A DNA stretch of 64,000 bases from an uncultured Pseudomonadota bacterium (GTDB lineage Bacteria; Pseudomonadota; Gammaproteobacteria; Steroidobacterales; Steroidobacteraceae): the NCBI GenBank assembly GCA_903868595.1, contig CAIPVV010000025.1:62001-126000 (forward strand), in the 5' to 3' direction. The notes below the pieces were generated by a model that saw nothing but the letters and a program-made list of their open reading frames with translations, had not been told where the DNA came from and made no database searches. Below, in pieces: positions 6,677 to 33,865 of this stretch. Within the stretch, counting starts at the first letter, position 1; each line of letters starts with the position of its first letter. The position numbers and the translations under genes are program-made.

Positions 6677-7039
6677 ATGCAGCGTCCCAAGCCCCGCGGG
6701 TTAACGCGGCTTTTCCGGGCCCTGAACTCCAGCCGCAAGGGCTTTATGGGGGCCTTCCGGGAGGAGGCCGCGTTCCGGCAGGAACTGCTGCTCGCCGTCG
6801 TGGTCTTCCCCTTGGGTCTTTACTGGGGCCACTCTGGCATCGAACGCGCCCTGCTGGTGGGCCCGATGTTCCTCGTCCTCATCGTGGAGCTGCTGAACAG
6901 CGCCGTGGAGGCCACCGTGGATCGCATTGGGCTGGAGCAGCACGCGCTCTCCGGGCTCGCCAAGGACCTGGGGTCCGCCGCCGTGCTGCTGTCGCTGGGC
7001 CTGCTCGTCACCACCTGGATACTTGTATTGTGGAAATAA
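6677..7039 (+). CDS. dgkA: diacylglycerol kinase
   Basis: A 120-residue integral membrane kinase that phosphorylates diacylglycerol, recycling the lipid left over from periplasmic glucan or LPS modification. It shows the family motif VELLNSAVEATVDRIG, the N-terminal amphipathic segment with NSRKGFMGAFREEAAFRQE, and three hydrophobic helices. I chose ATG 6677, which matches family length. The stop codon TAA shares bases with the ATG of the next gene (TAATG), so the two are probably translationally coupled. Confidence 0.94.
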   Translation: MQRPKPRGLTRLFRALNSSRKGFMGAFREEAAFRQELLLAVVVFPLGLYWGHSGIERALLVGPMFLVLIVELLNSAVEATVDRIGLEQHALSGLAKDLGSAAVLLSLGLLVTTWILVLWK

Positions 7040-9855
7040 TGAAAAACCCGATGCTGGCCCGAGTCTGCGGTGTGCTGCTGGTCCTGGCCATGGCACCGGC
7101 GCAGTCCCAGGTGCCGGCACGGGAGGATGCGACCTGGGCCGCGACGCTGGAGCGCATCGCGCAGAGCGTGGTGGCGATCGAGATCGACTCCACCCGCGCC
7201 TTCGACACCGAGTGGAGCACCTCCGCGCAGGCCACCGGCTTCGTGATCGACGCCGAGCAGGGCCTGATCCTCACCAACCGCCACGTCGTGACGCCGGGGC
7301 CGGTGACGGCGGAGGCGACCTTCCTGAACCGCGAGGAAGTGCAGCTCTACCCCGTGTACCGCGACCCGGTGCACGACTTCGGCCTGTACCGCTACGATCC
7401 GGCGAAGCTGAAGTTCATCAAGCCGCGCTCGCTGCCGCTGTACCCGGAAGGGGCGCAGATCGGGCGCGAGATCCGCGTGATCGGCAACAACGCGGGCGAG
7501 CAGCTCTCCATCCTCGCCGGCACGCTGGCGCGCCTGGACCGCGAGGCGCCCGCCTACGGGCTGGGCAAGTACAACGACTTCAACACCTTCTACCTGCAGG
7601 CGGCCTCCGGCACTTCCGGCGGATCCTCCGGCTCCCCGGTCGTGGACATCGAGGGCCGCGTCATCGCGCTGAACGCCGGCGGCGCCACCGGCAACGCTTC
7701 CAGCTTCTACCTGCCGCTGGGGCGCGTGCGTCGGGCGGTGGAGCTGATCCGCGCCGGCAAGCCCGTCACGCGGGGCACGCTGCAGACGGTGTTCACGTAC
7801 ACGCCGTTTGATGAGCTGCGCCGCCTGGGCCTGGATTCGGCCACGGAGGCGGCGATCCGCAAGGCCACCCCCGCCGGCATCGGCATGCTGGTGGTCAACG
7901 AGGTGCAGCCCGGCTCCCCCGCCTACGGGCAGTTGCAGCCCGGCGACGTGCTCGTGAAGGTCAATGACCGCTACATCACGCAGTTCGAGCCGCTGGAGGC
8001 GCTGCTGGATGATTCCATCGGCAAGACGGTGAACCTGGAGCTGCAGCGTGGCGGCCGCAGCGTCACCACGCCGCTGACGGTGGGCGACCTGGACGGCATC
8101 ACGCCCGCCGCGTTCATCGAGTTCGGCGAGGCGGTCGTCAACGACCTCTCCTACCAGCAGGCGCGGCACTTCAACCTGCCGGTGCGCGGCGTCTACGTCG
8201 CCAACCCCGGCTACGCGCTGTCGGCCGCGGGCGTGCCGCGCGGCGCGCTGATCACGACGGTCAATTCCCATCCGGTGGCGCGCCTGGCGGATTTCCGGGC
8301 GGCGCTGGATACACTGGGGGATGGGGATCGCGCGACGCTGCGCTACACCACCATCGATGACCCCAATGGCAGCGTGCTCAAGTCCTTCCGCATGGATCGA
8401 CGCTGGTTCCCGGCGCGTGAGTGCCACCGCGACGACGTGCTGGGCCTGTGGCCCTGCACGGACCTGCCGGCCGGTCCCGCGCCCAAGACGCAGGCCGTCG
8501 GCAGCACAAACTTCCCGACCAACCCCGACGCACTGATCACCAAGCTCGCCCCGTCGCTGGTGCACCTGACCTTCGACATGCCGTATCCGGTCTCCGGCAT
8601 CACCGAGCGCAACTACCACGGCACGGGTCTGGTCGTGGATGCGGCGCGGGGGCTGGTGGTGACCGATCGCAATACGGTACCCGTGTCGATCGGCGATGTG
8701 CGCATCACCTTCGCCGGCGCGATCGAGGTGCCCGGCAAGGTGGTGTTCATCCACCCGCTGCACAACCTGGCCGTGGTCTCCTACGACCCGGCGCTCATCG
8801 GCACGACGCCGGTGAGGAGCGCCAAGTTCGATACCCGCGGGCTGCACACCGGCAGCCCCATCACCGTCGTGGGCCTGGACGGCGACGGCGACATCAAGTC
8901 GCGCAACACCGTGATCGCCTCCAACGATCCGCTGCAGCTGCCGCTCTCCCGCACGATGCAGTTCCGCGACAGCAACATCGAGGTGGCGCAGCTGCTGAAC
9001 CCGCCCGCCGATTTCGACGGCGTACTCGCCGATCCGAAGGGCATCGTGCTGGGGCTCTGGTCCAGCTACGTGTTCGAGAACGGCCGCGAGACGCTGCAGG
9101 GCAACCGCGGCGTGCCGATCGACCTGGTGACGGACATGCTGGAGCACGTGCGCAGCGGCCAGCCGATGCACACGCTGGATGCAGACCTCACGCTGCAGCC
9201 GCTGGCCAACGGGCGCCGCCTGGGCTTGAGCGATGCCTGGGTGAGCAAGCTGGAGCAGGCCAACCCCGAGGGGCACCAGGTGCTCAGCATCTCGCGCCTG
9301 ACCGGCGGCTCGCAGGCCAGCAAGCTGCTGCAGCAGGGCGACCTGCTGCTGGCCGTCGCCGGCAAGCCCGTGACGCGCTTTCGGGAAGTGGAGCGCCTGG
9401 CCGAGGGCGCCGAGGCCGTGGACGTCACGGTGTGGCGCGGGGAGGGGGAGCTCACCTTGAAGGTGCCGACCACCGCGCTGCCGGGCACGGACCTGGACCG
9501 CATCGTGCACTGGGCCGGCGCCACCCTGCAGGCACCGCACCGCGCCATGAGTGCCCAGCGGGGCATGCGACCGGAGGGGGTTTATGTGGCGTACTACCAG
9601 TTCGGCTCGCCGGCGACGCGCTTTCACCTGCTCCCCGGGCGGCGGATCGTGGAGGTCGACGGCCAGCCCACCCCGAACCTGGATGCGTTCCTGAAGGTGG
9701 TGGCGGGTCGCCCGGACCGCGCCTCGATCCGCCTGCGCACCCTGACCTGGAATAACTCCCCGGAAGTCATCACCTTGAAGCTGGACCGGCACAACTGGCC
9801 GGCCTACGAGATGCGCCTGGGGCCTGTCGGCTGGGAGCGTCACGCCCTTGACTGA
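7039..9855 (+). CDS. exported double HtrA/PDZ serine protease resembling eukaryotic Nma111
   Basis: A 938-residue protein with an N-terminal signal peptide (cleavage likely after AQSQ). The first trypsin-like domain has an intact-looking triad: His82 (ILTNRHVV), Asp113 (YRDPVHDFG) and Ser197 in GGSSGSPVV. A PDZ-like region follows (about residues 280-360). A second, degenerate trypsin-like domain has Asn in place of His (VVTDRNTV) and no GNSGG equivalent, and is followed by more PDZ-like segments. The architecture and phrases such as YPVYRDPVHDFG resemble yeast Nma111 (a nuclear HtrA) far more than DegP. It is probably periplasmic or secreted. Coupling to dgkA suggests envelope function. Substrate unknown. 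Confidence 0.75.
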   Translation: MKNPMLARVCGVLLVLAMAPAQSQVPAREDATWAATLERIAQSVVAIEIDSTRAFDTEWSTSAQATGFVIDAEQGLILTNRHVVTPGPVTAEATFLNREEVQLYPVYRDPVHDFGLYRYDPAKLKFIKPRSLPLYPEGAQIGREIRVIGNNAGEQLSILAGTLARLDREAPAYGLGKYNDFNTFYLQAASGTSGGSSGSPVVDIEGRVIALNAGGATGNASSFYLPLGRVRRAVELIRAGKPVTRGTLQTVFTYTPFDELRRLGLDSATEAAIRKATPAGIGMLVVNEVQPGSPAYGQLQPGDVLVKVNDRYITQFEPLEALLDDSIGKTVNLELQRGGRSVTTPLTVGDLDGITPAAFIEFGEAVVNDLSYQQARHFNLPVRGVYVANPGYALSAAGVPRGALITTVNSHPVARLADFRAALDTLGDGDRATLRYTTIDDPNGSVLKSFRMDRRWFPARECHRDDVLGLWPCTDLPAGPAPKTQAVGSTNFPTNPDALITKLAPSLVHLTFDMPYPVSGITERNYHGTGLVVDAARGLVVTDRNTVPVSIGDVRITFAGAIEVPGKVVFIHPLHNLAVVSYDPALIGTTPVRSAKFDTRGLHTGSPITVVGLDGDGDIKSRNTVIASNDPLQLPLSRTMQFRDSNIEVAQLLNPPADFDGVLADPKGIVLGLWSSYVFENGRETLQGNRGVPIDLVTDMLEHVRSGQPMHTLDADLTLQPLANGRRLGLSDAWVSKLEQANPEGHQVLSISRLTGGSQASKLLQQGDLLLAVAGKPVTRFREVERLAEGAEAVDVTVWRGEGELTLKVPTTALPGTDLDRIVHWAGATLQAPHRAMSAQRGMRPEGVYVAYYQFGSPATRFHLLPGRRIVEVDGQPTPNLDAFLKVVAGRPDRASIRLRTLTWNNSPEVITLKLDRHNWPAYEMRLGPVGWERHALD

Positions 9856-9880: not shown

Positions 9881-10906
9881 ATGGCAAAAGTGATCCGGGC
9901 AACGCAGGCGGAGCTGGAGGCGGCGGTGGAAGCGCTGCGCGATGGCGAACTGGTCGCGTTTCCGACCGAAACCGTCTACGGGCTGGGGGCCAACGCCTCC
10001 GATCCCGCGGCCGTGCGCAAGGTCTTTGCGGTCAAGGGCCGGCCGTCCACGCATCCGGTGATCGTGCACCTTGACGACGTGAAGTACCTGCGCCGCTGGG
10101 CACGCGAGGTGACCCCGGAGGCCCACCAGCTGGCCGAGGCCTTCTGGCCCGGCCCGCTCACGCTGGTGCTGCCACGTGCCGAGGGCGTGAACGACGTGGT
10201 CACCGGCGGCCAGGATACCGTGGCCGTCCGCATCCCCTCCCACCCGATGGCCCAGCAGCTGCTGACCGCCTTCGGCGGCGGCATCGCCGCGCCATCGGCC
10301 AATCGCTACGGGCGCCTGAGCGCCACCCGCGCCGAGCACGTGCGCGAGGAATTCGGCGACGAGGTGAAGGTGGTGCTGGATGGCGGGGAGTGCCAGGTGG
10401 GACTGGAGTCCACCATCGTCTCCTGCGAGCCCGGGCGCGTGCGGCTGCTGCGGCCCGGCTCGATCGGCATCGCCGCGCTGCGGCGCTGTGTCGGGGAGGT
10501 GCTGGTCGGCGCCGATGCCTCCTCGCCGCGCGTGCCGGGCAGCACGCTTGCGCACTACTCCCCACAGACGCCGGTGACGCTGGTGAGCGCCGGGGAGCTG
10601 GATGCGCGCGCCGAGGCGCTCTCGGAGGGCGGGCAGCGGGTGGCGGTGCTCGCCCAGCGCCTGCCCCTGAAGACCTACCAGTACGTGACCTGGATCAATG
10701 CCGGCAAGCGTGTCGATGCCTATGCGCACGACCTGTACGCCAACCTGCGCACGCTCGACAAGGCGGGCTGCACGCGCATCCTCGTGCAGGAGGTTCCCGG
10801 CGATGAGCGCTGGGATGCCGTGCGCGATCGCCTCGTGCGCGCGGCGGCCCGCGAGGCCCTCACCCCCGCGGACGACTCCACCATCTCATTGGGCGTCTTG
10901 CCCTAA
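9881..10906 (+). CDS. tsaC: L-threonylcarbamoyladenylate synthase, Sua5 type
   Basis: A 341-residue Sua5/YwlC/YrdC-fold enzyme making threonylcarbamoyl-AMP for the t6A37 tRNA modification. The YrdC domain (about 1-200) shows FPTETVYGLGANA, VKGRPSTHPVIVHL and the nucleotide-binding APSANRYGRLS. A further C-terminal Sua5 domain (about 230-341) makes it the long form, unlike the roughly 190-residue E. coli TsaC. It is cytoplasmic. No other t6A gene is nearby. Confidence 0.93.
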   Translation: MAKVIRATQAELEAAVEALRDGELVAFPTETVYGLGANASDPAAVRKVFAVKGRPSTHPVIVHLDDVKYLRRWAREVTPEAHQLAEAFWPGPLTLVLPRAEGVNDVVTGGQDTVAVRIPSHPMAQQLLTAFGGGIAAPSANRYGRLSATRAEHVREEFGDEVKVVLDGGECQVGLESTIVSCEPGRVRLLRPGSIGIAALRRCVGEVLVGADASSPRVPGSTLAHYSPQTPVTLVSAGELDARAEALSEGGQRVAVLAQRLPLKTYQYVTWINAGKRVDAYAHDLYANLRTLDKAGCTRILVQEVPGDERWDAVRDRLVRAAAREALTPADDSTISLGVLP

Positions 10907-32577: not shown

Positions 32578-32594
32578 GGCGCGCCTAGCGCGCC
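32578..32594. terminator. hairpin between convergent murA and algW
   Basis: A perfect 7-base stem (GGCGCGC/GCGCGCC) with a 3-base loop lies where murA and algW converge, and overlaps the algW stop codon. There is no T-tract, so a terminator role is a guess from position. Confidence 0.3.
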
Positions 32595-33865
32595 GTGGGG
32601 GTGTCGATCGCCGTCAGTTCCAGCGAGAACGGCTGCGTGCCGCGGGTGCCGGTGATCTTCACCACGGAGCCCGGCTTGTGGTTGGCAATCTGCACCAGCG
32701 TGTCCTGCGAGCCGCGCACGGGTTTGCCGTCGATGGTGAGGATGCGGTCGTTGATCGCCAGGCCCGCGCGCATCGCCGGGGACCCTATATACATGTCGTC
32801 GATCACGACGCTGTCGGCCGGGTAGCCCAGTTGGGCGGCGCGCTCCGGCTCCAGCTGCTGCGGCAGGATCCCGATCCAGCCGCGCACGACGCGGCCCTTC
32901 TCCAGGATCTCGCGCATCACGCCGCGCACCAGGTCCACCGGGATGGCCACGCCGATGCCTTCGGCGCCGCGGTTCTTGCCCAGCACGGCGGTGTTGATGC
33001 CGATCAGTTCGCCGCGCACGTTCACCAGCGCGCCGCCCGAGTTGCCCTCGTTGATCGCCGCGTCCGTCTGGATAAAGTTCTCGAAGGTCGCCACGCCAAG
33101 CTGCGCCCGCCCGGTGGCGCTGATGATGCCGTGGGTCACGGTCTGCTGCAGGCCCAGCGGGCTGCCGATGGCCAGCACGATGTCGCCGACCTGCAGGTGG
33201 TCCGAGCGGCCCAGCTGCATCACCGGCAGGCGCGTTAGGCGGATGCGCAGCACGGCAAGGTCCGTGTCCGGGTCGCGACCCACGACCTCGGCCACGGCGT
33301 CACGACCGTCGGCCAGCTGGATCTGGATCTTGTCCGCACCCGCGATGACATGGTTGTTGGTGACGATGTGGCCGGCCGAGTCCACCAGCACCCCGGAGCC
33401 CAGGCTCTGCTGGACGCGCTGGCGGTAGCGGGGCAGGACTCGGCCCGGGAAGAGCTGCTCCAGCCCGCTGGGCGGCAGCTGCTCGGTGACTTTCCGCTCG
33501 GCGAAGATATTCACCACCGCCGGCGCGCTGGCGCGCACGGCCGGTGCGTAGCTGGCCACCACCGGCAGCCCGCCCGTCTGCTCCGCCGGGCCGTAGGGCG
33601 CGGATAGGGGCGCATCGTCCGGGGTGACGGCCGCGCTGGCGGCCGCCACGCGGGCCTGCGGCGCGGGCGTCGGGGTGGCGAGGGGCGCCGTGGCGGCGGC
33701 CGGCTGCGCCGTCATGGCCCGGGGGGCTTCGCTGCCGGGCCGGTCGGCCGCCTCCCGGCCGAGCAGCCCCGGCCAGAGCACCACGGCCAGCAAGGCCAGC
33801 ACCAGTCCGACGGTGACTGACCCGCCCAAAAAGAGCGCTCCGCGTTTGATCTCGTTACCTGTCAT
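32585..33865 (-). CDS. algW: membrane-anchored Do-family serine protease AlgW/DegS
   Basis: A 426-residue HtrA protease. Residues 9-33 form a membrane anchor, followed by a long Ala/Pro-rich linker to about residue 105. The catalytic triad is His172 (IVTNNHVI), Asp202 (DPDTDLAVL) and Ser276 (EGNSGGAL). A single PDZ domain (about 315-415) senses misfolded outer-membrane proteins. One PDZ plus a membrane anchor fits DegS/AlgW, which begins RseA/MucA cleavage. The linker is longer than in E. coli DegS. It is divergent from petA. Confidence 0.9.

Follow-up and report, generated by a model that had tools for sequence, protein, structure and literature searches.

A predicted envelope-located bacterial form of the plant DEG7 double-Deg group, carried by most sampled genomes of a gammaproteobacterial order

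Introduction

The window analysed here is a stretch of 64,000 nucleotides from an uncultured bacterium of the Steroidobacteraceae (order Steroidobacterales, class Gammaproteobacteria; contig CAIPVV010000025.1, positions 62,001 to 126,000), and it carries on its plus strand, at positions 7039-9855, an open reading frame (ORF) of 938 amino acids from its ATG, hereafter called the double-HtrA gene. The product is probably an envelope-located double-Deg protein of the DEG7 group, built from two fused trypsin-PDZ-PDZ units, with an active first protease domain (PD1), a dead second one (PD2) that scaffolds a trimer, and a disulfide bond in the hinge between them. It is most likely the bacterial, envelope-located form of the double-Deg group to which plant DEG7 belongs; fungal Nma111 is linked to it here through a provisional sequence.

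In the papers cited here the double-Deg layout is described from plants, with a fungal nuclear protease as putative orthologue. DEG7 has the domain order PD-PDZ-PDZ-PDia-PDZ-PDZ, in which the inactive protease domain is involved in trimerisation (PMC3473262); the same order is given elsewhere, where the composition is taken to suggest a whole-gene duplication followed by degeneration (PMC4754418). DEG7 has been reported in the stroma, nucleus, mitochondrion or cytosol, and a putative orthologue is recognised in the fungal protein (PMC4130198). The serine motif of Nma111 is GXSXS (PMC7804941), Bir1 is a reported substrate of this protein, and the PDZ_1 domain has been reported from few fungi and archaea (PMC6411480). 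A literature search of mostly open-access papers found, in the portions available, no account of a bacterial double-Deg protein, and bacterial members may already sit unremarked in public family databases. Relative to these sources, the DEG7 layout is known, and the bacterial double-Deg branch with its export signal and hinge cysteine pair is new.

Results

Domain architecture and active-site residues

The Pfam domain search of the double-HtrA protein (maximum E 1) returned Trypsin_2 with an E value of 6.3e-29 (best stretch, residues 65-211), PDZ_1 (PF12812) twice and PDZ_6 four times. The domain order is trypsin-PDZ-PDZ and then degenerate trypsin-PDZ-PDZ. PD1 spans approximately residues 34-245 (7138-7773) and is followed by PDZ 1 (residues 285-337, 7891-8049; PDZ_6 match) and PDZ 2 of the PDZ_1/PF12812 type (residues 354-426, 8098-8316; Pfam match). 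The second half comprises PD2 at approximately residues 495-712 (8521-9174), delimited by the structure model and its alignment with a Trypsin_2 match under the cut-off, PDZ 3 at approximately residues 743-814 (9265-9480; PDZ/PDZ_6 match) and PDZ 4, again of the PDZ_1/PF12812 type, at residues 820-894 (9496-9720; profile match). Stretches of both halves are 28% identical when aligned with each other as an internal repeat.

The first module has the triad His82 (7282-7284), Asp113 (7375-7377) and Ser197 in the motif GGSSGSP (7627-7629), each invariant in two alignments that include the window protein (15/15 and 58/58 sequences). Among 117 other bacterial loci, which include contigs seen twice and represent 109 distinct sequences, Asp113 and Ser197 are present in all and His82 in 116, the position being not covered in the remaining locus (L083). 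The triad is thus retained across deep divergence, down to 31% identity (L145). A serine motif variant, GSSGA, occurs in L144.

When the second module is aligned to the first, Asn545 (8671-8673) occupies the His column, Asn576 (8764-8766) the Asp column, and Phe659, next to a gap, the Ser column, where the serine motif is absent. Among 15 diverse sequences, that of the window included, Asn545 is found in 12 and Asn576 in 14, and the second module is devoid of a serine motif. In the 117 other loci the His place holds Asn in 103 cases and otherwise Ser, Asp, Thr, Tyr or Gly, never His; the Asp place holds Asn in 112 and Asp in 5.

Structure of the second module

The AlphaFold2 model had a mean predicted local distance difference test score (pLDDT) of 83.4 and a predicted template modelling score (pTM) of 0.79. 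Its alignment input was the window protein with 57 of the 80 loci of the neighbourhood set defined below; L051 and L083 were dropped owing to a stop within the match, and 21 further loci were omitted for size. Foldseek with this model gave DegP and DegQ as best matches. VIA-align placed residues 496-713 on the DegP protease domain 3mh5_A (Z 18.3, root-mean-square deviation (rmsd) 2.8, 183 residues aligned), residues 495-814 on 8kic_A (Z 22.2, rmsd 4.8, 285 aligned) and residues 494-914 on DegP 3otp_D (Z 21.9, rmsd 7.5, 357 aligned). In the predicted structure, residues 496-713 are therefore a genuine second trypsin fold. The VIA-align rows mostly concern this module; the first appears in 1 of 50 (7xs0_A), a scarcity that carries no weight against the first-module fold.

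Export signal and hinge cysteines

The N-terminus of the window protein is visibly signal-peptide-like at approximately residues 1-24 (7039-7110, the end being judged by eye), and from its sequence the protein is predicted to be exported. A simple rule recognised a signal-like N-terminus at 71 of the 78 loci that could be tested, two more loci being cut off there. In L022 and L144 the signal is followed by a lipobox-like Cys (TSC and TAC), and therefore these two proteins are probably lipoproteins; their second-module His place is Thr or Ser, not Asn.

The sequence-only reading had proposed an exported chain with two trypsin-like modules, an intact first triad, a degenerate second module and several PDZ-like segments. 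Pfam, the AlphaFold2 model and VIA-align agree on the two modules, the PDZ segments number four, and the first triad and the signal-like N-terminus hold as described. That reading recognised the Asn for His and the missing serine motif in the second module, and overlooked the change at the Asp place.

The hinge between the modules runs from Trp456 to Cys473 (8404-8457) and contains a conserved cysteine pair, Cys462 (8422-8424) and Cys473 (8455-8457). Both residues are present in 117 of the 117 other loci, and from residue 33 on they are the only cysteines in 102 of the 109 distinct sequences. In the AlphaFold2 model each sits on a short strand of its own (E460-463 and E473-475), positions that fit a disulfide bond. 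Four matches above the DsbA-family cut-off were found in the genome. A hinge disulfide would suit an oxidising compartment and would be absent in reducing ones.

Placement relative to ordinary HtrA proteins

A protease-domain tree was computed from 15 PD1 domains, 15 PD2 domains and 28 ordinary HtrA domains (those of the class, the window's own genome and E. coli K-12 among them), without the provisional eukaryotic sequences introduced below; the ordinary HtrA loci L128, L133, L135, L138 and L139 are missing from it, since the motif filter gave no ORF. Each set fell on one side of a branch, with support of 100/99 for PD1, 100/99 for PD2 and 94/89 for ordinary HtrA. PD1 is thus a separate clade outside DegP/DegQ/DegS, and the tree thereby bears out the separation from ordinary DegP and DegQ that the sequence-only reading implied. 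Neither result that would have overturned that reading, a tree position among ordinary DegP/Q proteases or a structure lacking a second trypsin fold, was obtained. The duplication is old, since the PD1 domains of all sampled families stay together, as do the PD2 domains.

The NCBIfam model TIGR02037 (degP_htrA_DO) matched with an E value of 1.6e-39 and 136.1 bits, below its cut-off of 416.2, and the double-HtrA protein departs from the Do-family layout of one protease domain with one or two PDZ domains. Twelve listed alignments to ordinary HtrA proteins show mostly 23-28% identity over parts of the sequence. DegP/DegQ/MucD and DegS share with it the HtrA trypsin fold plus PDZ domains; they differ in having a single protease module, mostly (among those read) a GNSGG-type Ser motif and no dead module, and they form a separate tree group. 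The window's genome gave a single match to the double-HtrA protein and also encodes a DegP/MucD-like HtrA (L108) and a DegS-like HtrA (32585-33865, minus strand), both placed by the protease-domain tree. The DegS-like protein has 426 amino acids and a GNSGG motif, and its gene is flanked by what we take to be a murA-like gene and a Rieske/cytochrome b pair. All three Trypsin_2-detected HtrA genes of the genome lie on one contig.

PF12812 was considered as a private mark of double-HtrA proteins and was rejected, as it also matches DegP-like proteins of about 500 amino acids. The scan matched 52 of 398 genomes at 1e-4, of which 21 were above the cut-off; among ten PF12812 loci that were read, four with frames of more than 900 amino acids were double HtrA, and six of about 500 were ordinary DegP-like proteins. 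None of 14 control genomes reached the PF12812 cut-off.

Distribution

Of 196 genomes sampled from the order, 173 carry the double-HtrA protein at a match threshold of 1e-20, nearly always once. Outside the order the distribution is patchy: 16 of 229 genomes drawn from the class matched at 1e-30, three of them from the window's own order, and 2 of 299 drawn from the phylum matched, including the genome of the window itself. In a further family of the class, 10 of 59 genomes matched. Among the best 80 of at least 491 confirmed loci, 79 are titled Proteobacteria/Pseudomonadota or members thereof and one Actinobacteria; the relatives in this set include Steroidobacteraceae, Peristeroidobacter and Woeseiaceae. 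The locus from the metagenome-assembled genome (MAG) titled Actinobacteria (L029) encodes a copy 71% identical to that of the window, with DgkA- and Sua5-like neighbours, and its title or binning is probably wrong. Viral contigs gave 169 pattern matches, none of which was confirmed as a relative, and plasmids gave 7 records, at 33-45% query coverage and 26-28% identity.

The sequence-only reading had entertained a transfer. One into this single genome was rejected: since 173 of the 196 genomes of the order carry the gene, a recent arrival is unlikely.

Comparison with plant DEG7 and fungal Nma111

Plant DEG7 (Arabidopsis At3g03380, Deg clade III), of about 1000 amino acids, shares the active and the degenerate trypsin domains and four PDZ domains, and the bacterial protein shows the DEG7 order PD-PDZ-PDZ-PDia-PDZ-PDZ; the export signal and the hinge cysteine pair stand on the bacterial side of the comparison. 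The bacterial GGSSGSP agrees with the GXSXS motif described for Nma111. The location differs, since the bacterial protein has a signal-peptide-like N-terminus whereas the fungal protein is nuclear, and the bacterial protein is not assigned to Nma111 proper, the nuclear, pro-apoptotic protease. For yeast, the nuclear location of Nma111 was reportedly established by Fahrenkrog in 2004.

For yeast Nma111 and Arabidopsis DEG7 the comparison used provisional sequences, entered by hand without a database record, so that it serves as a lead. The provisional yeast sequence is 35% identical to the window protein over 913 collinear residues, and the provisional DEG7 sequence 49% over 492 residues in the first half and 32% over 493 in the second. 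The positions of Cys462 and Cys473 are Tyr/Tyr in the provisional Nma111 and Tyr/Ala in the provisional DEG7, and the two-module layout of Nma111 is taken from the provisional sequence. The Nma111 architecture proposed by the sequence-only reading stands as a double HtrA, with published support for the layout coming from plant DEG7.

In a domain tree with the provisional eukaryotic rows (L018, L027, L140 and L141 omitted), PD1 grouped with PD1 (99/97) and PD2 with PD2 (100/100), so that the duplication would predate the bacterial/eukaryotic split. Trees with a DegP/Q-type outgroup joined the bacterial and provisional eukaryotic forms in one clade (100/100), the inner order of which they did not resolve. 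Approximately unbiased (AU) tests with the provisional rows, on a tree that omitted L018 and L027, gave p = 0.0545 for a bacteria-only clade and p = 0.164 for a grouping of both eukaryotic rows.

Gene start and neighbourhood

An alternative GTG start lies 9 nt 5′ of the ATG and would give 941 amino acids. The ATG (7039-7041) overlaps by one base the stop (7037-7039) of the upstream gene on the same strand, which we take to be dgkA (6677-7039, plus strand), and the downstream gene is presumably of the Sua5/TsaC type (9881-10906, plus strand). The promoter scan found 0 (shuffles 0.2) and the terminator scan 1 (shuffles 1.1).

Neighbours were counted in these best 80 loci, with flanks of up to 4 kb that are shorter in some. 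A Sua5-type gene lies downstream in 63/80 loci and is the commonest of the neighbours looked for; a gene labelled LysA lies downstream in 46/80. A DgkA match lies upstream in 50/80, a few loci having a flank too short to show it; in 29/80 its end is no more than 361 nt away from the protein match. The coupling to dgkA that the sequence-only reading had pointed out is thus present in the window and is not a trait of the family. A dgkA-specific function was rejected on these counts; since relatives have other neighbours, the operon-like association with dgkA is a local one and offers no hint about function. Five loci (L077, L087, L097, L103 and L107, of which L103 is a Woeseiaceae MAG by title) have upstream what we take to be a gcvPB-like gene, and all of these except L087 have downstream a gene presumably encoding a small exported DUF4124-like protein.

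Discussion

We propose the following course of events for the double-HtrA protein. Two copies of a trypsin-PDZ-PDZ unit would have fused, probably before the bacterial/eukaryotic split, a timing that depends on the provisional eukaryotic sequences. The PDZ domains would bind exposed or misfolded polypeptides and hand them over to PD1, whose triad is seen in the sequence and which would cleave these substrates. By analogy with DEG7, the dead second module may scaffold a trimer and add two further PDZ domains, and a disulfide between Cys462 and Cys473, formed in the oxidising envelope, may fix both halves relative to each other. The role would be protein quality control in the envelope, combining proteolysis with a chaperone function towards envelope proteins, alongside the DegP/MucD-like and DegS-like proteins.

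Several observations weigh against this proposal. The Trypsin_2 match of the second module reaches 25.1 or 22.5 bits against a cut-off of 27.6, and we regard the fold as real despite this weak match because the model and VIA-align place it on DegP. Around the first active site, pLDDT is below 50 at residues 82-86, 154-195 and 215-222. HtrA proteases undergo a disorder-to-order switch at the active site, and the low confidence may reflect this switch or a shallow alignment. Seven of the 78 N-termini have no clear signal, some true starts perhaps lying further upstream, and the DsbA matches are family-level and do not prove a DsbA enzyme. PF12812 weakly matches ordinary DegP-like proteins of about 500 amino acids, and Bacteroides ihuae, a control genome, matches it below the cut-off. 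The tree program warned of long branches at the junction of PD1 and PD2, so that the placement of the two relative to each other is unsure, and the comparisons with provisional eukaryotic sequences are a lead and not a test. Residues 154-195 (7498-7623), which precede the active Ser, are highly conserved and yet among the least confident parts of the model.

The first module might be no protease in vivo, with the protein acting mainly as a PDZ-bearing chaperone or scaffold, as the poorly ordered active-site loops of the monomer model and the published chaperone activity of yeast Ynm3/Nma111 (PMC4877387) would allow. We think this improbable, given that the first triad is conserved at nearly every locus whereas the second module has lost its own; had the first module died as well, one would expect its triad to have drifted likewise. 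A recent duplication of an ordinary DegP/DegQ within the lineage, with a convergent likeness to DEG7 and Nma111, would explain why the Protein Data Bank (PDB) sequence matches are HtrA-family proteins and why degP_htrA_DO is matched at all. That match falls far under its cut-off, PD1 lies outside the 28 DegP/Q/S-type domains, the single grouping of PD1 and of PD2 indicates an old duplication, and identity to ordinary HtrA is lower than that to the provisional eukaryotic forms (mostly 23-28% versus 35% and 49%). The protease-domain tree largely refutes this account, to which we give hardly any credence.

The relation to eukaryotes could also have run in either direction. Acquisition of the bacterial gene from eukaryotes would agree with a layout described, in the papers cited here, for plants, with a fungal putative orthologue, and the trees do not settle the direction. 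We nevertheless judge it very doubtful, as the gene is present in most genomes of the order, nearly always in single copy, and also occurs in several further families of its class, and as full-length identities of bacterial proteins to the window protein (32-61%) are comparable to those of the provisional plant halves (49% and 32%). More plausible, and still held only tentatively, is the opposite course, a bacterial root as the sequence-only reading had also suggested, in which Nma111 and DEG7 derive from a bacterial periplasmic double-HtrA protein and the signal and hinge disulfide were lost in reducing compartments, the bacterial disulfide serving as a redox clamp. If this were true, the clamp would couple the dead scaffold module to the active module in bacteria.

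Conclusions

As an envelope-located double-Deg protein of the DEG7 group, the double-HtrA protein would be a further HtrA-type component of envelope quality control in most of a bacterial order. Its conserved, exported bacterial branch may offer a simple system for studying the role of a dead protease module, tuning by a disulfide bond and the origin of the eukaryotic genes.

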